Below are positions 1 through 32,396 of a stretch of DNA of 64,000 nt, piece after piece. The translations under genes and the position numbers were made by a program. The notes below the pieces were generated by a model. The model was not told the DNA's origin and did no database searches. It was given only the letters and a program-made list of their open reading frames with translations. The DNA is taken from positions 1-64,000 of IMG/VR virus record IMGVR_UViG_3300025137_005088, one strand, 5' to 3'. The stretch's first letter is position 1; each line of letters begins with the position of its first letter. Source of the stretch: a virus.

Positions 1-1213
1 GCTCATATAAGTGCCTCCACTCTGGAAATATATCTATAAAACTTTGATTTCTGCTTGCATCTAATATGTTATGAATAGATTTAAAGTATGCTATATCAAA
101 ATCATTACTGGTATTTCTAGCACAATTTTCGATAGTTTGTTTAACCTGTTGTAAATGTTTAGTAACCCGAGGAGGTAATGGACAGTCTAATATCCTTTCG
201 TAATGTTGTATACAACGTTCAAGTTCACTGCGGGTAAAAGCATTTATATTAAGTTCGGTTGGAAAAGTTACAAGATTAAATGTAAACTCCATATCGGGAT
301 AGGCTTGTATAAAGCTGGGCAGATGCCATAGGTTTACCCAAGAAATACCTACATGGAAATACGCTTCTCTGAGGACGTTGTTTGGTGCTGTCTGACAGAA
401 ACTTTTGTATTTTTCAATATTTTCAGCAACATTATCCCAATCTGTTTTTCCAGCTCGTTGCCAATCATGTTTGGTTCCCATACTTTCTGCACTAATACTG
501 ATGTTGACATGTTTAAAATTTTCTAATAGACTTAATATATTATATTTTCCATATTCAACTTTAGATGCATTTGTTACCAAAATTAGCTGTAAATCAATAT
601 TGCCTATGTTAATTAGTTCTTCCAACATTTGATAAGTGCCGGGCATAATAGTTGGTTCACCGCCTGCCAGTTTGACTTTCCTCAGATAAGGCAAATGTGT
701 TTTTAAATCTTCCCAGTTTATGTTGTATTCACTAATACCAGTTTTTAGATCATAGTCCTTATACTTGCCTCTTCCTAATTTATATCCTAATAGCTTATGA
801 TCTTTAAGCCAAAGATTACTGCTACCTAAACTACAAAATCTACACTTGTAATTGCATAGATTACTTGATCTGACATCTAAATACTCTAGACGAAAGTTAT
901 CTATTGTACCGTCTGGATAAGTTATTTCCTTTGCTGATTTAGGATTGATATGTGGGAATATTTTAAAATTATCGGTCCGAGTACTAGAAAGTGATGAGCT
1001 TTCTTTTTTAACACAAAGGTGACACATTTCAGGAGTTGTGTTTGGATCTATTAGATCCAATCTGAGCTGACGTAAAACGGGATTATTTGCTGTTTCTGCT
1101 ATAGTTTCACTAGGATCAAATTGATTCTCCCATGTTTCACAACAGGCTTGTACTTTGCCATTGGGTTTAAAGAACAAATGATTCCAAGGTAAAGGACAAA
1201 AGAAATTATTCAT
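1..1213 (-). CDS. Radical SAM protein with N-terminal Twitch-type region (3' end outside window)
   Basis: The frame is open from ATG at 1213 to the window edge (about 404 codons) and is cut at its C-terminus or just before its stop. The N-terminus reads FCPLPWNHL, then a CC pair and a CxxC (CHLC): the cysteine pattern of an N-terminal Twitch iron-sulfur region. The radical SAM cluster motif CNYKCRFC follows near residue 122, then a GGEP motif (LAGGEPT). The last visible residues (LDASRNQSFIDIFPEW) match the C-terminal motif of the next two genes, so little is missing. The ATG overlaps the upstream stop by 8 bases (ATGAATAA), and its Shine-Dalgarno CGGAG lies inside the upstream gene. The substrate is unknown. 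Family membership is seen in the motifs; a reaction cannot be assigned. Confidence 0.9.
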   Translation of the reverse strand, partial: MNNFFCPLPWNHLFFKPNGKVQACCETWENQFDPSETIAETANNPVLRQLRLDLIDPNTTPEMCHLCVKKESSSLSSTRTDNFKIFPHINPKSAKEITYPDGTIDNFRLEYLDVRSSNLCNYKCRFCSLGSSNLWLKDHKLLGYKLGRGKYKDYDLKTGISEYNINWEDLKTHLPYLRKVKLAGGEPTIMPGTYQMLEELINIGNIDLQLILVTNASKVEYGKYNILSLLENFKHVNISISAESMGTKHDWQRAGKTDWDNVAENIEKYKSFCQTAPNNVLREAYFHVGISWVNLWHLPSFIQAYPDMEFTFNLVTFPTELNINAFTRSELERCIQHYERILDCPLPPRVTKHLQQVKQTIENCARNTSNDFDIAYFKSIHNILDASRNQSFIDIFPEWRHLYE

Positions 1214-2360
1214 AATGCTCAAACTCCGGAACTATACTGTGCAAGTTTTCACTTCTACTAGCGTCTAGTGTGTGCGTATACTTATAAAAAGCTGGTAGCT
1301 TGGTGCTCCAATCCTCATGCCACATGTAATCAATTATGCCTTGTACTTTGGGCAAATCAACATATGGCGTTAATTGTTCGTGTGCTTGTCGTTTAAGTTT
1401 GTTGGGTAACACTCTTATATTCAAATATTCAGGATGATTTAATATATTAAAATATATTTTATGCCCATATGGTTTTGCCCATTCAATGAATTGAGGCATA
1501 CGCAATATATTATACATTTGTACTGTACAGTGTATTTCTATATTTGCATTATCAAGTGTTTGTATACTTTCAAAGTTATCCAACACTGTCTGCCAACGAC
1601 TGGGATGTCTAATATAATGATCTAGTTCACCCACAGCATCTATTGAACAGTTGAGTTGTATGCGTTTAAAATGTCTCCATCTCTCTAATAACCAAGAGGG
1701 CATTTTAACCAAGTTGGTATTATATTTTAATCTTATATCTTTAGCTGTACCGTTGTCAATAAAATAATCTAATAATCTTTGCTGTTCTTTAATAACAGTG
1801 GGCTCTCCACCTGTTAAGTATATCTCTTCAACAGTGTGTGCAATAGCAAACAAGTTTTCCCAAGTCTTTTCTTCTTCGGGCCAATCCATTCTGCTAAGAC
1901 GTTTGTATTCACTTTCACTTAGTGCAGTTTCAACACTGGCCCATTCTTTTACCCACATGTTACTGGCATACGGATTGCACATACGACACTTTAGGTTGCA
2001 CAAGTTGCTGAGCCTAAGATCCACATACTTGATATCAAATGGAGCATCTTCAGTATACTGTTTGTCTTCACTCCATTTTTCATTCCATGCTTGTCTAGCA
2101 CTGCGGATACCTGCGTCCTCTTCTCTAAAACAACGTGTACACATGTCTGGTCGTTCACTGTTTAACAGTTGCTTGCGAATAGTTGCGTATGTTTCACTGT
2201 TCCATGCTTGTTGCATATCATCTCTATACAGTTTGTAGGGAGTTCCATCCGGCTTCAATATAAAGTTTTTGCCTGGCGTACTATTACAACACACTCGCAA
2301 GTTACCGCTTGCGTTTGTAGCTAGATGCATCCAAGGCAATATACAAAACGTGTCAGACAT
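1206..2360 (-). CDS. Radical SAM protein with N-terminal Twitch-type region
   Basis: The protein has 384 residues from ATG at 2360. A TTG three codons upstream would lengthen it, but MSDTFCILPW matches the starts of its paralogues, and the ATG sits in an 8-base overlap with the upstream stop (ATGTCTGA) behind CGGAG. Cysteines at about 6, 24, 25, 74 and 77 form the N-terminal Twitch pattern. The radical SAM motif CNLKCRMC lies at about 121-128, followed by LTGGEPT. Such enzymes reductively cleave S-adenosylmethionine at a 4Fe-4S cluster, and the extra cysteines probably bind an auxiliary cluster. The C-terminus ends LDASRSENLHSIVPEF plus four residues. The substrate is unknown. It is one of five tandem paralogues at the left end (a different radical SAM type, 3531-4505, interrupts them). 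Confidence 0.93.
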   Translation of the reverse strand: MSDTFCILPWMHLATNASGNLRVCCNSTPGKNFILKPDGTPYKLYRDDMQQAWNSETYATIRKQLLNSERPDMCTRCFREEDAGIRSARQAWNEKWSEDKQYTEDAPFDIKYVDLRLSNLCNLKCRMCNPYASNMWVKEWASVETALSESEYKRLSRMDWPEEEKTWENLFAIAHTVEEIYLTGGEPTVIKEQQRLLDYFIDNGTAKDIRLKYNTNLVKMPSWLLERWRHFKRIQLNCSIDAVGELDHYIRHPSRWQTVLDNFESIQTLDNANIEIHCTVQMYNILRMPQFIEWAKPYGHKIYFNILNHPEYLNIRVLPNKLKRQAHEQLTPYVDLPKVQGIIDYMWHEDWSTKLPAFYKYTHTLDASRSENLHSIVPEFEHYE

Positions 2361-7179: not shown

Positions 7180-7194
7180 ATATGTATTTAACTA

Positions 7195-8277
7195 CTATGT
7201 AAATTGTTCAGCAAAGGGATCAAATTCTGTTCCGCACTTCATAGCACATACACCTAATTTTCCTTGCTTTACACTGGGTAAATTCCAACTATTTTCAATA
7301 TTATTTAACAATGATCCTTGCATAACTGTGTGTAGATCATTGTTTATTACATCAATTCCCTCTTTCCCGCCGGCGAGATCAATATGTTCCCACACTTGTT
7401 CTATACGATAATCTTTGTGCCACCACTTGTACATACGACCAGCAACCCAACAACAAGGCATTAATAATCCTTCTGCCGTAATAAAGATTGATTTTTCTTC
7501 AGCTACTTTGCATTTTATATCACAACTATCATAATATTCACGCATACTTCCATAAGTTTTTTCTATTTCTTTTTGTTTTAATAGTGCTAGGTTTTGATTG
7601 CTTAATTGTTTGGGCTTTTCTAATAGCTGTGTTTCAATACCTTTTCTATTTTTTGCCTGGTGCGTGTCTTTCTTTTGACTATTAGCATTAAAGAATCTGC
7701 CTGACTTTTTCTTTTGAAAACGTTCTACACCCCATGATTTAGCAAGTGCTTCAGCTTCATCAACCTGATGTTCATTATGTCCAAATATAATGTAGTCCCA
7801 ACGTGCTCTACCGCCAGCATCAACGAATGCTCGCATGTTGCGTTCTACTATATCCCATACAACATTTTGCCTATACAGATGATTAGTGTCGCTAAGACCG
7901 TCAACTGAGAATATAACGGTACCTTTCTTTCCAATTGTTTTAGCAAGTGCTTGCCACCATTTAACATCTTTTGCTCCAGCGTTTGTGTTCATACTTAGCC
8001 ACATATCTTTATTGTGACTTCTAAAATATTCAAATACTTCCAGCGTATCCTTGGCTACTATAGGATCGCCCAGGTTACCACACATGTACATGGTGTTTAA
8101 TTGTTTAATAAAGTCAGGTGTAAAGATCGCTTGACAGTCTTGTAAACTTAATTCACTATTATCTATGTGGCGGTTGTCTACACCACCATTTTCATTTCTA
8201 TCACACATTGGACATGCCGCCTGACACTTTTGCGTAATTTCCAAATGCACTGATCTAATATCTTCATAGCTATACAT
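7195..8277 (-). CDS. Radical SAM protein with C-terminal SPASM-type region
   Basis: The protein is 360 residues. The radical SAM motif CQAACPMC lies near residue 18, at the start of the core. In place of GGEP it has CGNLGDPIV, the form seen in SPASM-type enzymes. The C-terminal third has CDIKCKVAEE, a GLLMPCCW segment and VCAMKCG, which fits auxiliary iron-sulfur clusters. SPASM enzymes often modify peptides or proteins, so a peptide substrate is possible. ATG 8277 overlaps the small gene at 8270-8494 by 8 bases. Confidence 0.9.
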   Translation of the reverse strand: MYSYEDIRSVHLEITQKCQAACPMCDRNENGGVDNRHIDNSELSLQDCQAIFTPDFIKQLNTMYMCGNLGDPIVAKDTLEVFEYFRSHNKDMWLSMNTNAGAKDVKWWQALAKTIGKKGTVIFSVDGLSDTNHLYRQNVVWDIVERNMRAFVDAGGRARWDYIIFGHNEHQVDEAEALAKSWGVERFQKKKSGRFFNANSQKKDTHQAKNRKGIETQLLEKPKQLSNQNLALLKQKEIEKTYGSMREYYDSCDIKCKVAEEKSIFITAEGLLMPCCWVAGRMYKWWHKDYRIEQVWEHIDLAGGKEGIDVINNDLHTVMQGSLLNNIENSWNLPSVKQGKLGVCAMKCGTEFDPFAEQFT

Positions 8278-8494
8278 CTAATATCAGTTTTACATCCTTG
8301 CCAGGACCTACACGACTGGGCAGGTCTCCGTATGTATTTACATACCATTCAATCACTGCACGGTACCATAGTTGACTGTTGTGATGTGCTTGTTTGTTGA
8401 ATTGATGAATATTGTTGTTGGTTGCCGCCATAGCACTCAATGCCCTAGCACTTTCTATTTGTAGATCTCTCAGTTTTAGATCGTCTAAATTCAT
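8270..8494 (-). CDS. Small protein of unknown function between a radical SAM gene and a methyltransferase-like gene
   Basis: The protein is 74 residues, starting at ATG 8494, which overlaps the upstream TGA (ATGA). The N-terminal half is probably helical, with many Ala, Asn and His; the C-terminal half has LWYRAVIEWYV and SRVGPGKDVKLIL. It has no cysteine and no membrane segment. I do not recognise a family. The tight overlaps on both sides support it as a real gene. Its position beside a SPASM-type radical SAM enzyme allows, but does not show, that it is a partner or substrate. Confidence 0.75.
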   Translation of the reverse strand: MNLDDLKLRDLQIESARALSAMAATNNNIHQFNKQAHHNSQLWYRAVIEWYVNTYGDLPSRVGPGKDVKLILDV

Positions 8495-9519
8495 TTCTTT
8501 CCAATCAACATAAACCTATTATAAAGTTGCGTATCCAATTCACCTTCATAGTATATTGTACGCATTGGATATTTCTTTTTTGCTTCTTTAACGTTTTTTA
8601 CACAATTAATATGTTGTGGATTGCTAAAATAATCATTTGTTTGTAAACACACTAAAGTATCCTTAGGCAAACGCTCAAACCAAGTTTCGTTCATGTGTTC
8701 ACAACTGGTGTTTATAACTAGGTCAGGCTGAACCCAAATTTCTACGTTGTTGCCTTCCATATTTTTGGTTCCTACTATAAAGCTAGCTTCATCGTCGTAG
8801 GTAATATCATCAACATCTTGCCATACACTCTTAAACTGCCACTGGTTATTAGTTTGTATATAGTTAAAATCATCTGCCATTTGTATGCACTGAACATCTT
8901 TTTCAAGACTTAAATATTTTTTAATATCAAAATTTTGAAAAAATAACTGTGCAACAGTAGCATACCAGCCTCCGTATTGTACTACTGTGCCTAACTTAGG
9001 AGGGTGTGCTATTCCTGTTTGTTCTGTTACAATTTTTTTAAGTTCATCTACCATCCATAACTTGCTACACATTTGTCCTCTGCTGAAATGCTCATTCAGA
9101 CTTGCCTGTGTTTCCCATTTAATGCACCAACTGCTGATTCTTCTAATATATTCGTCGTCGATGCAGTGTGCGATATAACGAGCTATCTTTCTATGCGTGA
9201 CATATTTCCAGCCTATATGATGTGACATTAGTATGTTAATAAATTCTTCACTGAATTCGATTCGTCCTCTGTTTATTTCACCAACTATTAATCTTTTTAT
9301 TTTCCAAATATTACCATGTAATACTGCTTTTTTAATATTCATAAACATATCAAGTTGAGGATGATCAATATGTGTAAGATATTCTTCAATTCCGTGTATC
9401 CAAAAGAAGTCTAACGTGGGTTTGTATATTATTAATTGTTCCCCGTCTTCACCTTTAATTACCTTTTCTTCACCTATTAGGAGTTTACCGTCTTCGTTTA
9501 TTTCGTCAAGTTGCGGCAT
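8491..9519 (-). CDS. Conserved protein, possibly a class I methyltransferase-like protein
   Basis: The start is ATG 9519 behind AAGGAG with 8 bases of spacing; a TTG one codon earlier is less likely. The protein is 342 residues. The N-terminal 150 residues are helical and unassigned. Around residue 185 a Rossmann-like glycine segment (VVQYGGWYATVAQLFF) is followed by an acidic strand, and near residue 275 comes DLVINTSCEHM, then LVCLQTNDY. This layout resembles phage methyltransferase-like proteins, but no catalytic motif is conclusive. It overlaps both neighbours (4 and 14 bases). Confidence 0.6.
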   Translation of the reverse strand: MPQLDEINEDGKLLIGEEKVIKGEDGEQLIIYKPTLDFFWIHGIEEYLTHIDHPQLDMFMNIKKAVLHGNIWKIKRLIVGEINRGRIEFSEEFINILMSHHIGWKYVTHRKIARYIAHCIDDEYIRRISSWCIKWETQASLNEHFSRGQMCSKLWMVDELKKIVTEQTGIAHPPKLGTVVQYGGWYATVAQLFFQNFDIKKYLSLEKDVQCIQMADDFNYIQTNNQWQFKSVWQDVDDITYDDEASFIVGTKNMEGNNVEIWVQPDLVINTSCEHMNETWFERLPKDTLVCLQTNDYFSNPQHINCVKNVKEAKKKYPMRTIYYEGELDTQLYNRFMLIGKK

Positions 9520-10210
9520 CAAATGTCTCCTTTAACCATTCAAAATCATTAATAAGATTTAATGTTTTTGCATTATTTTTATATGCTCGACCAAAGTCAG
9601 CGCCTTGCTTTGCTCCTAGTATTGCGTATTCACCGTTCTGTCTCGTATCGCCTTTGCTTTGCCATACCTTTAATCTGTACTCATTGTCAGTATTATCACC
9701 GTGTTCAATGACAGCACTGGCTAGTTTAGTACATTCTCTAAATGCACTGCGCCATGCATTAAAAGGATCTGTATTAAATGCTGTAATATTACTCACTTGA
9801 AACTTGGGCACAAATGGACAACCTATACTTGTTGTCATATCTACATTCCAATCCTTTGCTTCTAATAGTGCTTTGCGTGGGAACAGCTTTGCTCCGCCAT
9901 ATCCATACAATAGATCATTTACTGGATTTTGACTACGCCATACAAACACACAGTCACTTTCATACACTCCGGGCCAATGTTCTTTATTATGTCTCGGTGT
10001 AAACTTAAAATTAAACTGTTCGTCTATAATAGCATCAGCATCAATTACATAAAAGTTTCTCGTTTCTGCTAGTTTAGCCGCGGCTTTGTGTGCCGCAAAA
10101 ATGCCTTTAACACCCTGTACACGCTTGGCGAGGGGTGCGAACAGTTGTAGTAATTCAAAGTTGTCATCAGCATATGGCTCATGATAGCTAATCTGAATAA
10201 CATCTAACAA
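9506..10210 (-). CDS. Glycosyltransferase-like protein
   Basis: The protein is 234 residues. The start is TTG 10210: an in-frame stop lies eight codons upstream and there is no upstream ATG, while GGAG stands 8 bases before the TTG. VIDADAI near residue 57 is a DxD-type metal and nucleotide-sugar site. AAHKAAAKLAET, YGYGGAKLFP and AWRSAFREC are shared with the paralogue at 32399-33376. It is the first gene after the internal promoter at 10234-10261. A GT-A-type sugar transfer role is inferred; donor and acceptor are unknown. Confidence 0.7.
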   Translation of the reverse strand: MLDVIQISYHEPYADDNFELLQLFAPLAKRVQGVKGIFAAHKAAAKLAETRNFYVIDADAIIDEQFNFKFTPRHNKEHWPGVYESDCVFVWRSQNPVNDLLYGYGGAKLFPRKALLEAKDWNVDMTTSIGCPFVPKFQVSNITAFNTDPFNAWRSAFRECTKLASAVIEHGDNTDNEYRLKVWQSKGDTRQNGEYAILGAKQGADFGRAYKNNAKTLNLINDFEWLKETFDAAT

Positions 10211-10233
10211 ATTAAATTCTCCATATATAGTTT

Positions 10234-16358: not shown

Positions 16359-16373
16359 AATCCAATACCCGCA

Positions 16374-22203: not shown

Positions 22204-23539
22204 TAAACACAACCTCAGCCTCAGCTTTTTGCTCTTCAGTTCTTTCAAAATAATATTTGTGTTCAATGTCTCTACCATAGATAGGATAGTAAAAAATATC
22301 TTTGTCTTTAGGTATTATGTTTTGTACTTTTTCAGCAAAAGGTGTATCTTCAAAACTCATACACTTAACATTGATTTGATCTTGTGGATAGTCTTCAACA
22401 AGATTGCTAACCTTTTGCAACACTTTATCTATTGTAAACTCTACATGAAAACTAAATTCCAAGAACACACCTTTGTCTAATAGGTCTCTATATTTTTTCT
22501 CACCGCCTGTGCCGTTTGTGCTTATTCTAGTTTCATATCCTTTTTCAAACGCTATATCTACCAGGTCTGCTATCTGTGGATTAAGTGTTGGTTCTCCTCC
22601 GGTAATATAAAGTCTTCGACTGGGCTTTTTAGGAACATAAGGATCAACTAAAGTTAATCCATGTGTAAACTCGTCTGTGGTCATGTGTGGGCTTGCATTA
22701 TCATGTACACCATTTAGCAACTTGCCTGTGTCATCAAAAGTTGGTCCAGGACAATATGCACAATCATAATTGCAACGTAATCCAATATGAAAATGTACTT
22801 CAGCCATTGGCATTGCCATACCTCTACCCATTGCTACAATATTATCATCTGCTTTTGAAATTGGTAATTCTTCTAACTGCCAATGATTAAACTGTTTGTT
22901 TGTAACAAAATATTCTAACAATTCTTCTGTTTTTGCTTTTGGTTGTAGCAAGTCAGCATCACAAAAACATGCTTTGGTTTTACATAAAGTTTCTGTATTA
23001 AGTTCTAACTTGTCATAATCTTTCCAATGACCATCGTGACTTGCAATATGTCTCACATTTGCACAAACACCACTACAAATTTCACCAACTGGATTAATAC
23101 TAAAGTTGGTTTTGTATATAGGACAATGCCAGCCTCTCATATCCATTTGACGCATTTTTAAGGCTACCATGCTTATGCGTTTGTATTCCATTTTGTCTGT
23201 TAATACATAAACTGGATTCTCAACATACACAGGTTTTTTATAACCAATACTGCCATCATCTCGTATTAGTATGCCAGTATCGTCTGTACCAATCCATACA
23301 TTGCCATTCATATTTCTTGTTACAAGTTGTTCAACAATTTGTCCATCTTCATAACGGTTAATATTACGAGTAACTTTGCTTATGGCATAACCATGTAGTT
23401 TGTCGTCTTTATACTGTCCTGCATATGTTTTGTCAATACCTAATCCTTTGCGTTTACCATCAGTATATTCAGCAACTGAATCTTCCATCTCGCCTGGACC
23501 GGAGTAACCATTTCTCAGCATTTTTTTAGTTACTTTCAT
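22196..23539 (-). CDS. Radical SAM protein with MORN-like start and N-terminal cysteine-rich region
   Basis: The start is ATG 23539 (MKVTKKMLRNGY) behind AAGGAAG; the longer frame to 23587 lies inside the upstream gene. The protein is 447 residues. Near residue 40 YAGQYKDDKLHGYA resembles a MORN repeat, as in the gene at 24172-25605. Then come WHCPIYKTNF, EICSGVC, and CKTKACFCDADL, an auxiliary-cluster region. The radical SAM motif CNYDCAYC and YITGGEPT follow. In relatives at 3531-4505 and 27716-28753 the cysteine-rich region follows the core, so the order here is permuted. Substrate unknown. Confidence 0.85.
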   Translation of the reverse strand: MKVTKKMLRNGYSGPGEMEDSVAEYTDGKRKGLGIDKTYAGQYKDDKLHGYAISKVTRNINRYEDGQIVEQLVTRNMNGNVWIGTDDTGILIRDDGSIGYKKPVYVENPVYVLTDKMEYKRISMVALKMRQMDMRGWHCPIYKTNFSINPVGEICSGVCANVRHIASHDGHWKDYDKLELNTETLCKTKACFCDADLLQPKAKTEELLEYFVTNKQFNHWQLEELPISKADDNIVAMGRGMAMPMAEVHFHIGLRCNYDCAYCPGPTFDDTGKLLNGVHDNASPHMTTDEFTHGLTLVDPYVPKKPSRRLYITGGEPTLNPQIADLVDIAFEKGYETRISTNGTGGEKKYRDLLDKGVFLEFSFHVEFTIDKVLQKVSNLVEDYPQDQINVKCMSFEDTPFAEKVQNIIPKDKDIFYYPIYGRDIEHKYYFERTEEQKAEAEVVFND

Positions 23540-24179
23540 GGTACTCGCTTCCTTGTCTAAAAAAATCATAATCTGGATATTCTCCAACTTGAGACATTAT
23601 AAAATCTTGTTTTCTAAAAACTAAATCAACTTGATGTAAGGCACCATGTTCGTAATCCATGTTTACAATATCCCACAGTTTAAATCCGATGTGTTCAATA
23701 TCAGATATAAGCTCACCCATATATGGTAGTTGTGCTTCTACTATCATTAAATCAAACTGACAACAGGTAGCAACACCACCTCGTATTATGTCCAGTTCGT
23801 ATCCGTCAACATCAATTTTAACCAGACTGTTCCCGCCACGCCATCTAGGAGTTATATCTAAACTATCCAGTGTTGTTATTTTACTTGTATACCCAAAGGC
23901 TTTACCTTCATGTACTAAATTTAAATCTATATTTTCTTTTATTTGATTTCCTAGTGCTACATTTATAAGTTCGTAGCTGTATTTTTTATAGTTTTCGTGT
24001 ATCTCATCATTATGATTTACGTCAGGTTCGATTAATACATGATGTGCTTTTGGAAAACTAAATTGTAACCAAGGAGTGCCTGTGTGTACTCCAATGTCTA
24101 GTATATATTTTATGTCATACCCGCTTTGTTTTAAAAATTGTAAGCTATCTTTTATTCTGGGAATACGATGTTTAATCAT
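23526..24179 (-). CDS. FkbM-type methyltransferase
   Basis: The start is ATG 24179 (MIKHRIPRIK), in an 8-base overlap with the upstream TAA behind GAGG. The protein is 217 residues. YILDIGVHTGT is SAM-binding motif I; HVLIEPD marks the next strand. SLVKIDVDGYELDIIRGG is the signature of FkbM-type enzymes, which O-methylate sugars and polyketides. Its place beside a MORN-repeat methyltransferase and sulfotransferases fits glycan tailoring. The substrate is not known. Confidence 0.88.
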   Translation of the reverse strand: MIKHRIPRIKDSLQFLKQSGYDIKYILDIGVHTGTPWLQFSFPKAHHVLIEPDVNHNDEIHENYKKYSYELINVALGNQIKENIDLNLVHEGKAFGYTSKITTLDSLDITPRWRGGNSLVKIDVDGYELDIIRGGVATCCQFDLMIVEAQLPYMGELISDIEHIGFKLWDIVNMDYEHGALHQVDLVFRKQDFIMSQVGEYPDYDFFRQGSEYHESN

Positions 24180-25605
24180 TGCCAACCTCATATAGTCCTA
24201 ATTCGCCAGCTTCGAAGTTTTTAGGCTGTGGCGACCATACTCCTATTAGTGCGTTTTTATATTCCCAATAGCTTTGTGGACGCATATCCCACACTCGCCA
24301 ATTACCGTTTCTAGCAATACCCAACTGTGTTTGATCTAATGTTTCATGAGACAATATGTCAGGAGTGCAACACATTTCTTCACTAACTAAAATACCTCTA
24401 TCTGGGTGCATTAGATTCTTCACAGCATGTAGTTTTTTCCATGCAGTAGTTCCGTGTGTTGCATCATGTATTGCAAAATCTACTGGACCATACTTGTCCA
24501 TTAATTGTTTACAAGTGTCAGGTTTATAGCAATCTACACCAAGCTCTAGTTTTACTCCTTCAATTTTGCTAGCAATTTTTAGATCTTCTACTTGCTGTCG
24601 CCCTAGTGCATCTTCAGGTATACTGGTTGGTGTTAGCTTATCAACTCCAATTATAGTTGCTTGAGGGAATAGTTTTTGTAAAAATTGTAAGTGTTCTCCT
24701 CTACCAATACCAAGTTCAACAATAGTATAATTTTCATCTAATCCAAATATTTTATTTGTCCTTTTGAGATGTTTAACTATTAAATCATATATTGCACAGT
24801 ATCTTCTTTTCATTCTACGTTCAACACTTCTAGTAGGATTGTCTATCATATCAAATGCAATGCTACTGTATGTTTCAAAGTCTACCGGAGTACCTAATAA
24901 GAAATTGCTTTCGTAATCACCTTGTCCTAGCTGTTTTACCTGAGTCCTTCCGTGTGGTCTGCCACTTAAAAAATGTCCACTTGCAGTTCTAATCCAATCA
25001 CCATAGTGTGTTGTATCTCTTTTTCCTTGTACAAAGTTATATGGCGGCACATGTTTAGTTTCAGTAACAAAGTTTTTTTCTTCATGCCTAGTTACATTAA
25101 ACCCTTGCTCGTCTTTATAAGTTGTTGTTTTACCGCCTACTGCATTTACTATTGTACCATCTTCTAGTGTTCTACACCCTAGTCCATCTATGTTTGCTTC
25201 TTCTAATCCACAAGGCACATCATTTAGATACCATTGTCCTTCTCTTGGTTCGGCAATCATTCCATCTACACGACCTATAAATTTTACGCCTTTATGTACA
25301 GTTTCAAGTATGCCATATCCACAAGGTTTATTATTACTGAACTGTCCATAATACCTAGCACCAGTGGGCCATACATGCACACCAAACCCTTGTTTTTTAT
25401 CCAACAAGTTTTGCCCTATATAAGTTTCGCCATGATCCCATTCTTTAGCGGACATGCCGGTAACTTTATTGTAATCAAACTCAGCCGCACACTTTCCTGT
25501 TAATGGCAGATTATAAAATCCTAAGCCATGTTCAAACTGTGTTCCGTGTCGGTCTTGTACGACTTGTCCAATATATGTTCTGGGTGGCTTATAGTAGTCC
25601 CTCAT
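24172..25605 (-). CDS. MORN-repeat protein fused to a class I methyltransferase
   Basis: The protein is 477 residues. The N-terminal 150 contain MORN-like repeats, seen as TYIGQNLLDKKQGFG and YYGQFSNNKPCGYG, with further imperfect copies. The C-terminal domain carries a SAM-binding motif, IVELGIGRGEHL, near residue 297, IIGVDK after it, and VDFAIHDATHGT with a possible catalytic region. MORN repeats usually mediate membrane or protein binding, so they may place the methyltransferase on its target. ATG 25605 overlaps the upstream stop (ATGA). The substrate is unknown. Confidence 0.82.
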   Translation of the reverse strand: MRDYYKPPRTYIGQVVQDRHGTQFEHGLGFYNLPLTGKCAAEFDYNKVTGMSAKEWDHGETYIGQNLLDKKQGFGVHVWPTGARYYGQFSNNKPCGYGILETVHKGVKFIGRVDGMIAEPREGQWYLNDVPCGLEEANIDGLGCRTLEDGTIVNAVGGKTTTYKDEQGFNVTRHEEKNFVTETKHVPPYNFVQGKRDTTHYGDWIRTASGHFLSGRPHGRTQVKQLGQGDYESNFLLGTPVDFETYSSIAFDMIDNPTRSVERRMKRRYCAIYDLIVKHLKRTNKIFGLDENYTIVELGIGRGEHLQFLQKLFPQATIIGVDKLTPTSIPEDALGRQQVEDLKIASKIEGVKLELGVDCYKPDTCKQLMDKYGPVDFAIHDATHGTTAWKKLHAVKNLMHPDRGILVSEEMCCTPDILSHETLDQTQLGIARNGNWRVWDMRPQSYWEYKNALIGVWSPQPKNFEAGELGLYEVGND

Positions 25606-26348
25606 GCAAACTTTTCCTTGCAGTAATCGTAGAACTCTATATCCTTTGTTGTTGTTTCTTTCACTAGCTGTTTCTCGATGTTTGTTAGTTCCTCATAATT
25701 TAGATAGTCAATACCATGTTGACTTAAATTAAACTTTGTATTATGCTCATAGCTAATACTTAGATTGGGTTTTATATCATATTGCTTGGCTACTTTGTCA
25801 AACTGTTTTAAGTAATTATCCTCCATAAAAAACATGTGATCTAGTTTTTGTATATTCTCAATAGCTTGATCATATAGTTCTTGTTCATAATCGGTATCAA
25901 TTTTCCTTCCGTAATCAATACGCAAACACTGTTCATTACTAAACTTCTGATATTGTGCATACACAGGAGTTGGATGTAATCTACTACAATTAATAATCCA
26001 AGTTGTAAAGTCAATATCAGTAATACAACTATGCACATTAATCATTTCTAATTTGAAATAATTATATGCACTCATGATCCTTTTGATAGGATCTCTAAGT
26101 ATAGTAGCATACTTTACAGAATTTTGCAAGTGTTTATCTAAGTCAAAGCTAACACCATGTCCAATTATCAAACGAACATTTTCATCTTTACAGTTTTCTA
26201 TTAGAACTTTATGTTGATTGGATTGTTTAAAGTTAAACACCAACTCATGTGGAACACGCTGATAGGCAAATGTACTATTTGTTCTATACCTGTCTACTAG
26301 TGTGGTTCCTCCATTTTTAAGTATGTGAAATACTGCTAGTGTTTCCAT
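25602..26348 (-). CDS. Sulfotransferase-like protein
   Basis: The protein is 248 residues. FHILKNGGTTLVDRYR (Lys 11 to Leu 17) is the 5'-phosphosulfate loop that holds the PAPS 5'-phosphate. LRDPIKRIMSAYNYF (Arg 85, Ser 93) is the 3'-phosphate-binding motif. Both are characteristic of sulfotransferases that move sulfate from PAPS to hydroxyl groups of glycans or proteins. The gene overlaps a second copy by 13 bases. Acceptor unknown; sugar hydroxyls fit the neighbourhood. Confidence 0.85.
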   Translation of the reverse strand: METLAVFHILKNGGTTLVDRYRTNSTFAYQRVPHELVFNFKQSNQHKVLIENCKDENVRLIIGHGVSFDLDKHLQNSVKYATILRDPIKRIMSAYNYFKLEMINVHSCITDIDFTTWIINCSRLHPTPVYAQYQKFSNEQCLRIDYGRKIDTDYEQELYDQAIENIQKLDHMFFMEDNYLKQFDKVAKQYDIKPNLSISYEHNTKFNLSQHGIDYLNYEELTNIEKQLVKETTTKDIEFYDYCKEKFA

Positions 26349-27169
26349 TTATCTTCACACCTCTTATAAAATTCTATGTCTGCTTGCAAATCTAATTCAA
26401 CAAGATATTTTAAGTCTTCGTCTAATTCATGATACTTAACATACGCTAAATTGTGTTTGCTTAAATCATGTGTTGTTTCATTTGTATAGACCATTTCTTT
26501 CCATGCATTTAAGTCTAGTCTATAGTGTGCTAGTAAATCATCAAACCTAGTAACAATATCGTCTTCTTGAAAAAATACATGATCCATTTTGTTCATTACT
26601 CGTTCCCAAGTGATATTCATATTGTGTGTTTCTATTAGATTTTTTTCTTTTATCTTTTGTTGTATTTTTGTATTGTCAACATAGCTTGTGTCTTTTTCAA
26701 CGTCCCATGTAAGCACTGTGTTTAGATACATATCGTTCATTGTAAACATGTTTTTCAATGTTCCATCATTAAACCAATCGGTATGATCTACATGTTGATA
26801 CAAATAGTATTCGTACTGCTTTGTAACTGGCATCGGACGTAGCACATCTTTGTTTATGAACCACATATAAAAATCAATATCAGGACTGTCTGGATTCATA
26901 TAAAGCATTTGTGTACGATAAAAATTATACATGCTCATTATTCTACTGATAGGATCTCTAACACAAGTAATGTAAATTAAGTTGCTAGCGAGCTGTTCTT
27001 CGTAGTATCCTATTTGTACACTGTGTCCGAAAACAACTTTGGATTTGTCTGTAACTGTATCACCAAGGTCAGTGATTCTGAAACTATCGTTACTATTCCT
27101 GTATCTTTCTTTAAGTGTTGTTCCGCCTGTTTTAGGACAATGAGGAAAGATGATAATATTACTTGTCAT
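26336..27169 (-). CDS. Sulfotransferase-like protein
   Basis: The protein is 277 residues. HCPKTGGTTLKERYR (about 10-24) is the 5'-phosphosulfate loop, and CVRDPISRIMSMYNF (Arg 71, Ser 79) the 3'-phosphate-binding motif. The closing segment (DIEFYKRCEDKW) matches that of its neighbour at 25602-26348 (DIEFYDYCKEKF), showing tandem duplication followed by strong divergence. It is probably PAPS-dependent, with PAPS perhaps supplied by the APS-kinase-like protein at 16756-17181. The acceptor is unknown. Confidence 0.86.
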   Translation of the reverse strand: MTSNIIIFPHCPKTGGTTLKERYRNSNDSFRITDLGDTVTDKSKVVFGHSVQIGYYEEQLASNLIYITCVRDPISRIMSMYNFYRTQMLYMNPDSPDIDFYMWFINKDVLRPMPVTKQYEYYLYQHVDHTDWFNDGTLKNMFTMNDMYLNTVLTWDVEKDTSYVDNTKIQQKIKEKNLIETHNMNITWERVMNKMDHVFFQEDDIVTRFDDLLAHYRLDLNAWKEMVYTNETTHDLSKHNLAYVKYHELDEDLKYLVELDLQADIEFYKRCEDKWKH

Positions 27170-27719
27170 TGTACGTTCCAGTCTGAATTTTTCTTTTACA
27201 CTTTCTTAAAAAATTGTAATCTATGCTGTTGGCTACTTGATAGTCTCCTCGTAGTGCAGTATCTAGTTCATTGCTTTCAAATCTAGTGTTAAAATTTATA
27301 GTTTTACAATCTGTTTTTAAATACTTGCTAAGTTTCTCTGCAAGAAAGTCTAAAGTAAAATCTTTATGATTCATAACTTGTTCTTTTGGGTAAAGCGATC
27401 CTTTAGTAGGGTTCCATGTGATATAATTAATAAACCCTATAAATTTGTAATTTTTTTCTACTAGTTCTTTAGTTTCGCTAGTGTGTATATCTAAACTTTT
27501 GGTAATTATATTTCTTTCTTCAAACACTAACTCTTCAAAAGTTTTTCCTTTTGAATCACCATCACTATCTAAAAAATCCATTGTTTGTTCTATAGCTCTG
27601 TCAAATGGATCTCTTAATATTAAAATGTCAGCATTCTCTGTTACTAGCTCTAAGTTGTATATGTTAGCAATCTGTTCATGCCAGCAGTTTGGAATATAGT
27701 GTAATTTATTCATACTCAT
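27159..27719 (-). CDS. Sulfotransferase-related protein lacking the 5'-phosphosulfate loop
   Basis: The protein is 186 residues. LILRDPFDRAIEQTMDF (Arg 36) corresponds to the 3'-phosphate-binding motif of its two neighbours, and the C-terminal SIDYNFLRKCKRK matches their ends. The glycine-rich GGTTL loop is absent: the N-terminus starts with MSMNKLHYIPNCWHEQ. It may be a degenerate copy, a binding partner of the active enzymes, or a protein with altered chemistry. Tight overlaps on both sides (ATGA and 11 bases) suggest it is still translated. Confidence 0.7.
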   Translation of the reverse strand: MSMNKLHYIPNCWHEQIANIYNLELVTENADILILRDPFDRAIEQTMDFLDSDGDSKGKTFEELVFEERNIITKSLDIHTSETKELVEKNYKFIGFINYITWNPTKGSLYPKEQVMNHKDFTLDFLAEKLSKYLKTDCKTINFNTRFESNELDTALRGDYQVANSIDYNFLRKCKRKIQTGTYNDK

Positions 27720-28753
27720 ACAGCTACCGCTTCTTTAAACTTGCTTAAAATCAAATCAGTATTGCAAAAACAACTTGTCTTTTCACATGTGTATGCATAA
27801 GCAGGCATTCTAAAAGTCTTAAGGTTCTCTATATGTCCAAGCCACCTTATAGTTCCATTCTCATCTTTACCTTCAGGTAAACATGCGGCTCCACTAATAT
27901 ATCCAAGTTCATTAACAAACAAACCATCTATACCAGCATTACACTTCCATCCTCTGAATTGATTTTTCTTTGCACTGTACAGTCCATTTGTATCTAATAT
28001 AGTTTCTTCTTTGTATCTACCATCAGCCATTTTGTAAACCGCTGTAGCATCAATCGGCATACTGTATTGTTCGAAGCTAACATCTGGATTAGCAGTTTTT
28101 CTTTTGAATGCCAATTTCTCATCAATCTTTTCTTGTTGTTCTTTTGTATATACATGTGGTCTTTCTTTTTCAGTTAACCAATCTGCAACAATAGGAACTT
28201 TCTCAACAAAAAACTGTCCCATGTATGGTTGTGTCTTTAGCATTTCAAAAAACTCAATACACTTATCAAAGTATACTTGTTGTGGATGCATCATAATACG
28301 CACTCCTAACAGTGTATAAGGCCATAGTGTATCAATAACTTTAACACAATGTTTTAAACTTGTTTTTTCACTATGAAAGCTAAAACTTATCCAACGAAAA
28401 CTTTCCTTGTGTTTTTCCCAAAACTTAAGACTTTTACTTCCGTTTGTAGTCAATCCGACCTGCACATTTTCTTCTACTAACCAAGTTAAGAAATCATCAA
28501 ACACAGGTAATGCGGTAGGCTCGCCTCCTGTAAAACTTATTACAAGTTCTTCATCCTCATTGAGATAGCTTTTAATCTTAATTACAAATTCTTTGTATAC
28601 TTCCAAGTCAAAAGCAGGACTACTACCTTCGTAGTTGTAAGGGTGGCAGTATGCACAACTGAAGTTACACTTGTTGGTCAAGTTCCAGTTTATATGAAAG
28701 TATTTGTTATACTTTTGCTTAATCTCTATAAGCTCTGCACTATCCGACAGCAT
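27716..28753 (-). CDS. Radical SAM protein with C-terminal cysteine-rich (Twitch-type) region
   Basis: The protein is 345 residues. The radical SAM motif CNFSCAYC is at about 29-36 and SFTGGEPTA follows. The C-terminal region shows WKCNAGIDGL, GAACLPEGK and CEKTSCFCNTDL, the same series as at 3531-4505. It is a likely paralogue of that gene, and of 22196-23539 where the region precedes the core. It lies between the sulfotransferases and an unassigned gene. The substrate is unknown. Confidence 0.9.
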   Translation of the reverse strand: MLSDSAELIEIKQKYNKYFHINWNLTNKCNFSCAYCHPYNYEGSSPAFDLEVYKEFVIKIKSYLNEDEELVISFTGGEPTALPVFDDFLTWLVEENVQVGLTTNGSKSLKFWEKHKESFRWISFSFHSEKTSLKHCVKVIDTLWPYTLLGVRIMMHPQQVYFDKCIEFFEMLKTQPYMGQFFVEKVPIVADWLTEKERPHVYTKEQQEKIDEKLAFKRKTANPDVSFEQYSMPIDATAVYKMADGRYKEETILDTNGLYSAKKNQFRGWKCNAGIDGLFVNELGYISGAACLPEGKDENGTIRWLGHIENLKTFRMPAYAYTCEKTSCFCNTDLILSKFKEAVAV

Positions 28754-29756
28754 CTACTGTTTTCCCCTCAGTAAGTTTATAACCAATTGCCTGATTAAAT
28801 TCTGGATCTGGTACTACGTCAAAACTTCCAACTTTCAGCATTCCCCAAGTTAGCATATCAAATCTATTTCGAGTATCAGTCTTTTTAATCTTATAACCGC
28901 CCCAGTAGTTGTCTAAACTGTGATTTAAATGATCTAATGCTTCTTCATGTGTTCTCCGATCACCACACCAAAACATTAGTTCACCTGCATAACAACATTG
29001 TTGTTCTACTAAATCAAAACTACTACTTGTCATTTTTATTGCATTGTACTCATTATCGTCATACATTTCAATCATTATGTTATCGTAGTCATACCCAATT
29101 TGTGTAGGATATAAAAATATTTCACCTGGATTTCGTTCCATACTAAAACGATCAACCCATTCATCATCTAAGTAATGAAACTGATGATTAAACTTTAATC
29201 CAAAGTTTTGTAAGTTTGTTTCCTGTGTAACAGTTGTGGTTACATCTCTTAATACTTTAAGTGAATGAAAAATATGAACTAACTTTTCAATATGTCTTGT
29301 GATTCCTTGGTCATTAAGTACGCGATAGATTAGTATACATTGTGTTTGCATTGGATTAATAATGTCTTGATGTACTATTAGTCCCCATTGGTGATCTATT
29401 TTTCCTGCATCCATTTTATACCAATCTTGTAATGGGACGATCTTTTCTAATGTATTTTCAATTTGAGTAAATGCCTGTCCATTACTCATTACTGTATGTC
29501 CTAAAATTTCACTCAATGGAATGTTAGCAGTGTTATATCCATCGGCAATTTTATTCCATTCTTCTATTTTATCATTTAGAATAGGAACGATTTGATATAA
29601 TCTTTCTAATGCGTGGTGTTTATGATACACATTCCAATGCGTTACTTCCGGAACTCCAACAATATCCAACCCTAAATTAAACCAGTCTGCAAATATATCG
29701 CATTTGATTAGTTGGTTTTCTTTTTTATCGTTTTGCAATTTAAATTCAAACTTCAT
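28740..29756 (-). CDS. Protein of unknown function
   Basis: The start is ATG 29756 (MKFEFKLQNDKKE), with GGAA upstream, overlapping the previous gene by 11 bases. A longer frame to 29873 would add 39 residues read from inside that gene and is unlikely. The protein is 338 residues and acidic, rich in Tyr, His and Trp. Visible segments include THWNVYHKHHALERL, DHQWGLIVHQD and ELMFWCGDRRTHEEAL. There is no membrane segment and no motif I can name. Confidence 0.72.
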   Translation of the reverse strand: MKFEFKLQNDKKENQLIKCDIFADWFNLGLDIVGVPEVTHWNVYHKHHALERLYQIVPILNDKIEEWNKIADGYNTANIPLSEILGHTVMSNGQAFTQIENTLEKIVPLQDWYKMDAGKIDHQWGLIVHQDIINPMQTQCILIYRVLNDQGITRHIEKLVHIFHSLKVLRDVTTTVTQETNLQNFGLKFNHQFHYLDDEWVDRFSMERNPGEIFLYPTQIGYDYDNIMIEMYDDNEYNAIKMTSSSFDLVEQQCCYAGELMFWCGDRRTHEEALDHLNHSLDNYWGGYKIKKTDTRNRFDMLTWGMLKVGSFDVVPDPEFNQAIGYKLTEGKTVDAVG

Positions 29757-31044
29757 ACTTGTTCCATATTTTATAAAGCTCTGCAAAGTCAGAATTAAAA
29801 TCTGTCTTACGCATTTTATCAATACTGCGAATGTACTTGTTGAGGGGAAGCCACTTGTCGCTCCAGTCCTCACTGTTCATAAAGTTTGTCATGTGCTTTA
29901 ATTCTTGCACTTTATTCTTCTCTGGATACTTCAACATGAAGTTATCAATTTTTTCTGTAACAATCTGTTTCATTTCTTTAGGTAATACTTTAGCACACAT
30001 GTACTGTGGATAGTGTAACACACCAGGATGAAACATTCCTTGGTGATCATGTATTCCAATTTTTTTATAGTTTTGGTCAAACAAAAACTGTGCAAAGTCT
30101 GGCAAATACCAAATGTTTAATGCACTTACAGTACATAATACTTTACCAACAATATGGTCAGCCGCGTTTTCTACTTTGTCTAGTGTTTCGTGTACAGTTT
30201 GCCAATTAGTTGGATAGCGTAACCATTTGTTCATTTCGCCTATTCCGTCTATACTAAGCATAAGTTCTACAAACTTAAAGTGACCCCACAGTTCTAATAT
30301 ATCATCTGGCATAATAGTACCGTTGGTATGATAGCGTAGTTCTATATGTTCAGCATGTCCACTTTCGACACATTTCTTTAAGAAACGTTTATGGTTCTTT
30401 AAGTATAAAGGCTCGCCTCCTGCAAATATAAAGTGACGCATGCCAGCTAACAAAGGATCTATCTCTTGTTCCCAAAACTCGTCATCAGCGGCCCAGTCAT
30501 ATTTGTTGTTGCAATGGTCTTGTATTTTCCAATCCCAGTCACCTTTTACTTCAGGATTGTCGTGACTTAGGTCTCTGATCTTTTCTGCATCTTTGACCCA
30601 CTTACTTGAATCAGTTGGTCTACACATTACACACTGTACGTTACAAGTATTACCTAAACGTAAGTCTAATGTAATCACATCTTGGTCTAAGTATCCGTCT
30701 TCTTTAGTGCTTGTAATTAGTTCGTCAATATATTCTCTGCCAAGTTTTTTAGCCCATAAATTGTTTTCATTCATTCTGTGACTGCGTATGCCAGCCGCTT
30801 CTTCTTTCCAACAATGCTTACAAGCAGGCAATGCTTTACCAGCTATCATATCTTTTCTAGCATTTTTGAAATAGTAACTATTCCATACTGCATTTATATC
30901 AGCATTGTTTAAGTTAATACGTTTATCTTGTGTAGGCTGAGCTAGACAGCAAAGCAAGGCTGTGCCGTCTGTATAAGTTGCCATGTGCATCCATGGAAGA
31001 ATACAAAATTTCTTTCCATAGTCTTCTAAAAAATCTTGTGCCAT
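29746..31044 (-). CDS. Radical SAM protein with N-terminal Twitch-type region
   Basis: The protein is 432 residues. FCILPWMHMATYTDG, a CC pair and CKHCWKEEAAG form the N-terminal auxiliary region. The radical SAM motif CNVQCVMC and FAGGEPLYL follow. The C-terminus (IDKMRKTDFNSDFAELYK) keeps the Asp-x-x-Arg of the family but not the Pro-Glu-Phe. ATG 31044 shares its A with the upstream stop (TAATG). It is 22 kb from the left-hand array of the same family, so that family occurs in two places. Confidence 0.92.
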   Translation of the reverse strand: MAQDFLEDYGKKFCILPWMHMATYTDGTALLCCLAQPTQDKRINLNNADINAVWNSYYFKNARKDMIAGKALPACKHCWKEEAAGIRSHRMNENNLWAKKLGREYIDELITSTKEDGYLDQDVITLDLRLGNTCNVQCVMCRPTDSSKWVKDAEKIRDLSHDNPEVKGDWDWKIQDHCNNKYDWAADDEFWEQEIDPLLAGMRHFIFAGGEPLYLKNHKRFLKKCVESGHAEHIELRYHTNGTIMPDDILELWGHFKFVELMLSIDGIGEMNKWLRYPTNWQTVHETLDKVENAADHIVGKVLCTVSALNIWYLPDFAQFLFDQNYKKIGIHDHQGMFHPGVLHYPQYMCAKVLPKEMKQIVTEKIDNFMLKYPEKNKVQELKHMTNFMNSEDWSDKWLPLNKYIRSIDKMRKTDFNSDFAELYKIWNKYEV

Positions 31045-32396
31045 TATTCTACCAACTTTCTAATATTTTCATACAACTCGTCATCGACAATACTAAAGTT
31101 GGTATTACGTTGCTTGTCCCATACCTGTGTCATCTTTACAAAGTCTTGTAACTGTTCTTTCCAGTTATCTAACTGCGGTTGTTCTAAATATCCTACAATA
31201 CCATCTACGCTATTTTTTATCAACCAATTCTTCTCATATAATATATTACACTTTTCTTTGAATTCGAGCAATCTATTTTTTGCATTGACTCTCATTTCAA
31301 CAGGTAAATTTCTCACATCTAAATACGGAGGATGTGTATTAATTAATATGTCAACGCCAATACTTTTCCATTCTAGTTCTGGTTTTCCTGCATAAAATTC
31401 TTCACCTAACTCGTGTGCAAGCCATAGTATTTCATGTATTCTGTTCACATTATAAATTTGTAACACAGGACTTATATTGCTAGAAACGTTTGGTAAACTT
31501 AATATGCTTCTATAGTTTCTCAGTATAACGTCCCAACTCTTGGTGCCTCGTATGAATTCATTTACAACACCTATGCCATCTAAACTAGCGTTGATGTCCA
31601 CGCTTTCGAACTTACCAATACTATCTAAAAACTTTTGGTTTGCATTTGTACAGTTAGTATTCATAAAAACATTAATGTGCTTGCTGTGACCTTGTTCGGC
31701 GGCATAATTCAAAAACTGCATATTATTTTGAATCATAGTAGGCTCGCCTCCGGTCATGTAAACTTTTCTTAGTTTAGGCATCCAATCGTAAATATCTTTC
31801 CAAAAATCATCAGCATCGAACTTTTCTCTATATTCTTTACTATTGATCCAATCTGGACGTTTTCCATATGTCTTTTCTTGTATACGAGTATAATCTTCTT
31901 CAACATCGGTGAGCTTTACATCTTCTTTAGCAATAGTACTACTGTTAAAACTGTTGCACATTCTACAACTAAGATTACACAAATTACCTAAACGCAAGTC
32001 TAAATAAAGGGGGTCGTGTTCTGGTAACTCAAAGTCATTGTTATAGCTTGCTTCAATGCGTTCATGAATAGCGTCTTCGCCTATACGGCGTTCCCACTCC
32101 TCATTGTGCATTTGTCTAAAACTTTTTTTACCTACTTCTTCTTGTAAGTAACAGTGTTTACAACTACTAATTTCTTCACCTTGGATCATTGACATGCGTA
32201 TATCTTTCATGTCTTTTCCGTTCCAGGCTTCTTTTAGTGTTGTACTATTGATGTCCAGTATTTTTCCATCTTCGCTACGTAGGACACTGGGTTTGGCAAT
32301 ACAACAGAAGTCAATGCTTCCGCTGGTATTGACCATCATGCTCAACCATGGGTAAACACAGAATGTCTCTCCATACAATTCATCCCAATCTGCCAT
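31044..32396 (-). CDS. Radical SAM protein with N-terminal Twitch-type region
   Basis: The protein is 450 residues. FCVYPWLSMMVNTSG, CC and CKHCYLQEEVG mark the N-terminal auxiliary region; the radical SAM motif CNLSCRMC and MTGGEPTMI follow. The C-terminus (WDKQRNTNFSIVDDELYENI) is a diverged form of the family motif. It is co-transcribed with the related gene at 29746-31044 (TAATG junction) and follows a glycosyltransferase-like gene with a 2-base gap. The substrate is unknown. Confidence 0.92.
   Translation of the reverse strand: MADWDELYGETFCVYPWLSMMVNTSGSIDFCCIAKPSVLRSEDGKILDINSTTLKEAWNGKDMKDIRMSMIQGEEISSCKHCYLQEEVGKKSFRQMHNEEWERRIGEDAIHERIEASYNNDFELPEHDPLYLDLRLGNLCNLSCRMCNSFNSSTIAKEDVKLTDVEEDYTRIQEKTYGKRPDWINSKEYREKFDADDFWKDIYDWMPKLRKVYMTGGEPTMIQNNMQFLNYAAEQGHSKHINVFMNTNCTNANQKFLDSIGKFESVDINASLDGIGVVNEFIRGTKSWDVILRNYRSILSLPNVSSNISPVLQIYNVNRIHEILWLAHELGEEFYAGKPELEWKSIGVDILINTHPPYLDVRNLPVEMRVNAKNRLLEFKEKCNILYEKNWLIKNSVDGIVGYLEQPQLDNWKEQLQDFVKMTQVWDKQRNTNFSIVDDELYENIRKLVE

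Follow-up and report, generated by a model that had tools for sequence, protein, structure and literature searches.

What does a marine phage do with fourteen radical S-adenosylmethionine (SAM) genes in a single cluster? The question is raised by bases 1-64000 of the 67,065-base IMG/VR record IMGVR_UViG_3300025137_005088 (the window, which begins at record base 1 and holds 57 predicted proteins), from a marine virus infecting bacteria. A first-pass annotation had suggested that the cluster is a dedicated modification system. The analysis favours, with a probability of about 0.5, the view that the phage assembles and decorates an unusual glycan by means of a hypervariable, exchangeable island.

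Radical SAM genes and layout of the island

A six-frame profile search of the record gave exactly 14 PF04055 matches, on the minus strand only and within the 14 genes first annotated. The curated Pfam cut-off is passed by 13 of them; the remaining gene, 5773-7179, scores 26.5 bits there and 418 bits against NF033640 (N_Twi_rSAM; cut-off 170). The CX3CX2C motif is unbroken in all 14 and occurs in 14 of the 57 predicted proteins against 0.085 expected from residue shuffling; gene 1 (1-1213) is truncated by the contig end. The annotated count thus stands, as do the several domain layouts. Seven genes, termed N-twitch here, carry an N-terminal twitch domain before the core and match NF033640 over their full length at 275-418 bits, whereas the other seven do not reach its cut-off. 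Among the latter, 19177-20451 (70.8 bits) places a PF13186 SPASM domain ahead of the core; the genes at 20405, 3531 and 27716 have a core followed by a C-terminal SPASM or twitch domain; that at 7195 has a core with C-terminal cysteines; that at 22196 has an N-terminal twitch-like region between weak MORN-like repeats and the core; and that at 12052 joins a Gfo/Idh/MocA domain to a DesII-like core. Pfam matches to sugar-, sulfate- and methyl-transfer families are interleaved with them, as first described. The features, with strand in brackets, are as follows.

61283..61290 (minus): T4-type late promoter TATAAATA of the baseplate/tail block (gene 50 onward); in relatives whose contigs extend there
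39288..39295 (minus): T4-type late promoter TATAAATA of the last tail block (genes 41-39); present in 12 phages of the group
36539..36568 (minus): TTGACA-N18-TATAGT, sigma-70-type promoter in the gap preceding gene 38; element kept in 13/13 phages
36166..36513 (minus): gene 38, 115 amino acids (aa), opens the constant head of the island; in every relative whose contig covers it
35251..36162 (minus): gene 37, GT8-like glycosyltransferase, constant; DxD-type stretch LLDTDYLLMND by eye, no Pfam match; 63-92% in relatives A-E
34344..35258 (minus): gene 36, constant, judged by inspection a GT8-like glycosyltransferase; no Pfam match, 26% identity with gene 37
33380..34387 (minus): gene 35, constant by comparison of relatives
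32399..33376 (minus): gene 34, GT-A-fold glycosyltransferase family (fold of paralogue), constant boundary gene of the cassette; 66-93% in all relatives reaching it
31044..32396 (minus): gene 33, radical SAM, N-twitch; NF033640 357 bits; dN/dS (nonsynonymous to synonymous rate ratio) 0.037 against G001
29746..31044 (minus): gene 32, radical SAM, N-twitch; NF033640 385 bits
28740..29873 (minus): gene 31 (338 aa when read from a later start); unmatched in Pfam and PHROG
27716..28753 (minus): gene 30, radical SAM core with C-terminal CxC twitch (268-333); PF04055 44.5 bits
27159..27719 (minus): gene 29; no Pfam match
26336..27169 (minus): sulfotransferase; PF03567, at cut-off
25602..26348 (minus): sulfotransferase-like; 29% identical to gene 28
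24172..25605 (minus): MORN repeats (PF02493 above cut-off) and methyltransferase-like domain (PF01728 weak)
23526..24191 (minus): FkbM-family methyltransferase; PF05050 39 bits
22196..23539 (minus): gene 24, radical SAM core (PF04055), twitch-like domain in front by twitch profile, behind weak MORN-like repeats
21178..22278 (minus): class I/II (HisC-like) aminotransferase; PF00155; TIGR01141 138 bits, below cut-off
20405..21199 (minus): gene 22, radical SAM/SPASM; PF04055 and PF13186
19177..20451 (minus): gene 21, radical SAM with N-terminal SPASM; PF13186 and PF04055
18521..19180 (minus): putative SGNH-like protein by eye; G-C-S-F start motif, no Pfam match
17689..18534 (minus): putative SGNH-like protein by eye; 23% identical to gene 20, no significant Pfam match
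17150..17692 (minus): gene without Pfam or PHROG match
16756..17181 (minus): small P-loop kinase (weakly like adenylylsulfate, APS, kinase)
16374..16763 (minus): nucleotidyltransferase (weak)
14346..15833 (minus): carbamoyltransferase (NodU/TobZ type); PF16861 and PF02543
12052..14364 (minus): gene 13, fusion of Gfo/Idh/MocA oxidoreductase and DesII-like radical SAM; PF01408 and PF04055; TIGR04426; 8hzv
11328..12098 (minus): nucleotide-diphospho-sugar transferase; PF03407 above cut-off
10363..11340 (minus): UDP-glucuronate decarboxylase (UDP-xylose synthase, UXS); human UXS1 structures, E about 1e-92
10234..10261 (minus): second sigma-70-type promoter TTGACT-N16-TATAAT; TTGACA-N16-TATAAT in G001, absent in G004
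9506..10210 (minus): gene 10, GT-A-fold glycosyltransferase, paralogue of gene 34; AlphaFold confidence (pLDDT) 92.7, PDB fold matches
8491..9522 (minus): gene 9, partner family, methyltransferase-like; Rossmann methyltransferases matched weakly
8270..8494 (minus): gene 8, 74 aa, conserved; 73-96% in G001, G004, G008
7195..8277 (minus): gene 7, radical SAM; PF04055 30-32 bits
5773..7179 (minus): gene 6, radical SAM, N-twitch; NF033640 418 bits
4505..5776 (minus): gene 5, radical SAM, N-twitch; NF033640 294 bits
3531..4505 (minus): gene 4, radical SAM core with C-terminal CxC twitch by twitch profile; PF04055 51 bits
2353..3534 (minus): gene 3, radical SAM, N-twitch; NF033640 340 bits
1206..2360 (minus): gene 2, radical SAM, N-twitch, modelled; NF033640 394 bits; AlphaFold pLDDT 97.2
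1..1213 (minus): gene 1, radical SAM, N-twitch, cut by the contig end; NF033640 275 bits

At 15834-16358 lies a small signal-peptide-like protein with weak metallopeptidase-family matches and a homologue in none of the fetched relatives.

The first-pass annotation had also started from the premise that marine phages carry single radical SAM genes, and had treated the size of this set as special. Both points fail against published passages: the marine T4-like virus TARA_ERS488813_N000010 has 12 radical SAM genes (Nishimura et al. 2017, PMC5332604), and radical SAM cassettes lie in the host-recognition islands of pelagimyophages (Zaragoza-Solas et al. 2020, PMC7029224); the passages on these enzymes in the two papers assign them no function. 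IMG/VR contigs with 15-25 radical SAM genes also exist, in a sample biased by selecting records for N-twitch genes, so that 14 is not exceptional. The virus contigs G069 (L281; 77 kb) and G068 (L279; 43 kb) have 25 and 17 matches and are denser than the window, while the 457-kb virus contig G042 (L224) has 15 together with an A-type Fe-S carrier.

Cassette exchange and promoters at a fixed site

Thirteen related records were fetched, of which 12 have contigs crossing the gene 34 boundary. The tail genes and genes 38-34 are constant among the relatives, and a multi-radical-SAM cassette lies beyond gene 34 in all 12 that reach the site; G003, tried as an island-less relative, was rejected because its contig stops short of it. 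The island genes run in one direction, and their start adjoins the constant glycosyltransferase gene 32399-33376, behind the tail genes. At least five unlike cassette types occupy the site: type A in the window, G001, G002, G008 and G012, type B in G004, G009 and G011, type C in G005, G013 and G017, type D in G006 and type E in G007. G004 is a mosaic, with a proximal part of type B and a distal part made of orthologues of window genes 2-10, mostly 79-91% identical. The radical SAM genes are thus neither missed by profiles, which place all 14, nor scattered in related phages, which carry comparable cassettes at the same site.

The gp6 tree does not recover type A as a clade (approximately unbiased test, p-AU 4e-35 with G012 and 7e-10 without it), and it likewise splits type C. 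This disagreement of cassette types with the backbone tree indicates that cassettes replace one another at a fixed site. Taken by itself, the identity contrast with G012 gives moderate evidence for transfer, and only moderate because the radical SAM genes are intrinsically more constrained; the gp6 tree test is stronger. The closest relative, G001, preserves the whole island, which continues there past the point where the window is cut and comprises an unbroken series of 17 radical SAM genes and, farther along, a divergent one. The dN/dS values of the radical SAM genes against G001 are 0.04-0.30, mostly below 0.15, a constraint about equal to that of the tail genes or stronger, and the radical SAM genes are under purifying selection. 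Different island versions at the same site in relatives suggest that the island is a dedicated, interchangeable system for building unusual sugars. Of the earlier proposal of a dedicated modification system, the system is upheld by one island, fixed site, constraint, own promoter and recurrent partners; the modified target is the part that stays conjectural.

The type A island also occurs in contig NZGL01000008.1, filed in a gammaproteobacterial metagenome-assembled genome (MAG). Contamination or chimerism of the island is disfavoured by its recurrence in independent assemblies, this contig among them. In the MAG MED685, contigs L126, L159 (NZGL01000008.1) and L183 (NZGL01000017.1) belong to phage relatives and carry both tail genes and radical SAM islands; the reference genome therefore seems to include contigs of phage origin.

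Baseplate/tail genes lie upstream on the island's strand, gp25-like at 54280, gp6-like at 50705 and gp5-like at 55571; gp6 is 38-41% identical to that of jumbo phages such as Atu_ph07, PA5oct and SCTP-2, and 74 marine IMG/VR loci were found with it. The late motif TATAAATA is depleted (3 copies in the window against 11.75 in shuffles), and two of the three copies directly precede tail blocks and are conserved across the group. The copy at 39288..39295 is kept in 12 phages and was not seen there in the distant G012; the G003 contig ends earlier. The promoter before gene 38 has the same TTGACA-N18-TATAGT form in 11 relatives and reads TTGACA-N17-TATTAT in G012. This conserved sigma-70-type element gives the island head and cassette an early- or host-type promoter apart from the late tail promoters, and a late-only promoter is rejected as a full account of its expression. 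Since the gap ahead of gene 38 showed no terminator-like site, late transcripts may still read through into the island.

Judged by promoter type, the island would rather act early and perhaps on the host; judged by its site beside tail genes, rather on the virion. A version of the island's role that overlaps the glycan reading, and that is possible though below even odds, is that it alters the lipopolysaccharide (LPS) core or O-chain of the host early, blocking co-infecting phages or changing recognition. A promoter distinct from the late tail promoters is what an early function needs, and other cassettes at the site hold Kdo- and heptose-type genes typical of LPS-core sugars. The content of these cassettes, which also favours the glycan reading, includes KdsA/KdsB-like DAHP_synth_1 and CTP_transf_3 genes, an SIS isomerase, a ribulose-phosphate-epimerase family member, a DegT aminotransferase, a UDP-sugar dehydrogenase and a C-methyltransferase. 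Host-recognition clusters rich in glycosyltransferases are read likewise in the pelagimyophage paper, as far as its relevant passages go (PMC7029224). However, the tail-gene site suits a virion target equally, and no clear membrane segment, and hence no flippase, polymerase or initiating transferase, was seen by hydropathy in window genes or the other cassettes scanned, a result that is not decisive as LPS-core enzymes can be peripheral.

Sugar chemistry and the N-twitch enzymes

The firmest chemistry of the island is sugar chemistry, carried by UXS, the DesII-like fusion, GT-A enzymes and sulfo-, carbamoyl- and methyltransferases. Gene 10363-11340 is clearly nearer UXS than other extended short-chain dehydrogenase/reductase enzymes (UXS1 E 1e-92, next family 1e-28), and this assignment from structure-family matches replaces the 4,6-dehydratase of the best NCBIfam match. 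The radical SAM part of gene 13 matches solved DesII (8hzv, E 1e-77), and TIGR04426 is matched at 345.8 bits across positions 26-459 of 468. Gene 13 is a homologue of DesII (dTDP-4-amino-4,6-dideoxyglucose ammonia-lyase) over nearly its whole length; it differs in its Gfo/Idh/MocA fusion and in scoring below the equivalog cut-off, and is not filed as DesII, although deamination of an NDP-4-amino-sugar is predicted. In the gene 10 model (pLDDT 92.7) every significant PDB fold match is a glycosyltransferase (GT-A), with TM-scores of about 0.4, and D57 and D59 (DxD) are invariant in the family of genes 10 and 34.

These enzymes, with the aminotransferase and the PF03407 transferase, favour the glycan reading. 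The constant head (genes 38-34, with three probable glycosyltransferases) would be read from its own sigma-70-type promoter, with the swappable cassette after it. The phage would make UDP-xylose via UXS, and DesII-type radical deamination coupled to a Gfo/Idh-type reductase in one fused protein would give a predicted deoxy-sugar. Sugars would be finished with methyl, sulfo and carbamoyl groups and transferred by soluble GT-A glycosyltransferases to an acceptor that may be a virion protein or a host envelope sugar. The difficult C-H reactions on nucleotide sugars or the growing glycan, which could be dehydrations, epimerisations, oxidations or the forming of C-C bonds, would fall to the N-twitch enzymes, one reaction per paralogue, and unlike cassettes would yield unlike 'serotypes'.

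The same kit invites another interpretation, a diffusible sugar-based small molecule resembling an aminoglycoside or nucleoside antibiotic and acting on competitors or host. DesII, the BtrN-type twitch, the BlsE-like core, the TobZ/NodU-type carbamoyltransferase, the aminotransferase and the glycosyltransferases all overlap with such pathways. No transporter, resistance gene or membrane protein was seen, however, and the constant glycosyltransferases beside tail genes suggest a macromolecular acceptor; this interpretation is improbable.

The sugar substrates proposed for the N-twitch enzymes draw on profile searches. Their N-terminal domain matches the C-terminal twitch of BtrN (4m7t, E 1.8e-7), which acts on an aminocyclitol, and their core matches BlsE, a cytosylglucuronate-acting enzyme; both matches would fit glycan chemistry. 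BtrN and SkfB/CteB/SuiB share with them a core and auxiliary-cluster twitch or SPASM domains, but the domain order is reversed, and the resemblance of an N-terminal to a C-terminal twitch indicates permutation. FC, CC and CxxC are invariant or nearly so in N-twitch alignments. The gene 2 model (pLDDT 97.2) matches the folds of SkfB, CteB, SuiB, viperin and BlsE. No functional study was found by a literature search on the family name.

Several observations weigh against the glycan reading. Among the nearest matches to the whole fold of the N-twitch enzyme are the peptide maturases SkfB, CteB and SuiB; bacterial N-twitch neighbours show modest sugar enrichment (4 GT2 of 143) and are chiefly other radical SAM genes; neighbours in other phages include Asp/Arg hydroxylase-like and QueC-like genes; gene 13 falls 104 bits under the TIGR04426 equivalog cut-off of 450 bits; the glycosyltransferase and methyltransferase labels of genes 9, 10, 34, 36 and 37 come from fold or motif and not from matches to curated families; and several island genes lack any match.

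The peptide-maturase folds and hydroxylase-like neighbours point to the main rival for the N-twitch role, in which these enzymes would cross-link, epimerise or hydroxylate phage proteins of the tail or elsewhere, and glycosylation would come on top of that. The adjoining tail protein 36577-37740, with a Gly-Tyr repeat (SYGYGYGSYGYGYGY) in most relatives, longer in G005 and G006, could be seen as a target, but the repeat is absent in G008 despite the same cassette type and is unsupported as a radical SAM target across cassettes. Pfam scans of the cassette gave no precursor peptide or PqqD/RRE domain, the conserved gene 8 (74 aa) has no precursor-peptide hallmarks by eye, and the window enzymes with known solved relatives are sugar enzymes. 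Protein modification is regarded as unlikely.

Some phage DNA-hypermodification pathways use radical SAM or pyridoxal phosphate enzymes, and QueC-like genes occur in some relatives and other N-twitch loci. Yet none of the radical SAM genes is QueE by profile, the cassette has no hydroxymethyl-pyrimidine synthase or kinase, and the sulfo-, carbamoyl- and UXS genes would have no obvious role, which leaves DNA hypermodification barely credible.

Each of the seven N-twitch genes has a clade of its own in a 97-sequence tree, alongside relatives from other phages, and several clades also hold kin from MAGs of Bdellovibrionota, Halobacteriovoraceae or Neisseriaceae. Tandem duplication is thereby rejected as their origin, and the set was assembled from separately acquired lineages, not expanded in place. 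Such separate ancestries in a hypervariable island might suggest ordinary accumulation of unrelated auxiliary metabolic genes, but the fixed site, contiguous operon, own conserved promoter, purifying selection and recurrent partners make this very improbable. Of 80 independent virus loci retrieved with N-twitch profiles, 60 contain a member of the gene 9 family and 41 one of the gene 10/34 family; treating these as a single 117-member family was rejected, the two being linked by fusion proteins. An A-type Fe-S carrier occurs in five of six N-twitch records above 170 kb and an IscU-like protein in two, counted with no control phage set.

A second radical SAM family likewise has a mobile twitch: the CxC twitch is C-terminal in 128 proteins, precedes the core in 3 (gene 24 included) and forms a short separate open reading frame (ORF) in at most 9, some of which may be contig-end cuts. 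In gene 24 the C-terminal-twitch profile matches residues 146-206 of the longer ORF weakly (E 0.0019), and the MORN-like repeats stay below cut-off in three orthologues (E 0.0019-0.027). Stand-alone CxC twitch ORFs adjoin radical SAM genes in L209:6241-6579, L219, L247, L223 and L257, which suggests split enzymes. Gene 18 of G005 (L095:16262-16573; 103 aa) has a CC...C..C pattern like a separate SPASM/twitch domain and adjoins a 260-aa radical SAM gene. Vibrio phage K566 (L283; seawater and oysters), with three radical SAM genes in 4.5 kb and a fourth nearby, may be a laboratory entry to N-twitch enzymes.

Related systems and meaning for marine phages

TARA_ERS488813_N000010, a large marine T4-like phage, resembles the present one in its many radical SAM genes, and its phage Fe-S carrier genes recall those of the N-twitch records above 170 kb; the passages of PMC5332604 that treat those genes frame them as Fe-S metabolism, without cassette anatomy, partner genes, exchange or chemistry. 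The pelagimyophage host-recognition cluster, as its published passages describe it, is likewise hypervariable, set among structural genes and stocked with glycosyltransferases and radical SAM cassettes, but it encloses the tail-fibre genes, between VrlC and gp14, whereas here the cassette stands behind a constant glycosyltransferase block, radical SAM genes dominate and the phage group differs (gp6 nearest jumbo phages). Bacterial O-antigen and capsule loci share a swappable central cassette at a fixed site and nucleotide-sugar, sulfo-, methyl- and carbamoyl- functions; in contrast, the island has no export or polymerisation genes, adjoins phage tail genes and is dominated by radical SAM enzymes. 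To NF033640, whose cut-off seven genes here pass, are added a permuted BtrN-type twitch, a large phage radiation and recurrent partners. As multi-radical-SAM phages and radical SAM cassettes are already published, what is new is the anatomy of the island.

More tentatively, and with odds nearer one in three, the N-twitch enzymes may be a new class modifying glycans or nucleotide sugars, which marine phages shuffle in sets with GT-A and methyltransferase-like partners as 'serotype' cassettes, so that lineages would differ by displayed or host-imposed radical-made sugars. If the glycan reading is true, marine phages spend more than 30 kb on exchangeable sugar chemistry by oxygen-sensitive radical enzymes, which would give a reason for the Fe-S carrier genes in such phages and place NF033640 in a context with specific, testable reactions. 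It would also mean a large untapped enzyme set and a mechanism for rapid change of the phage or host surface.

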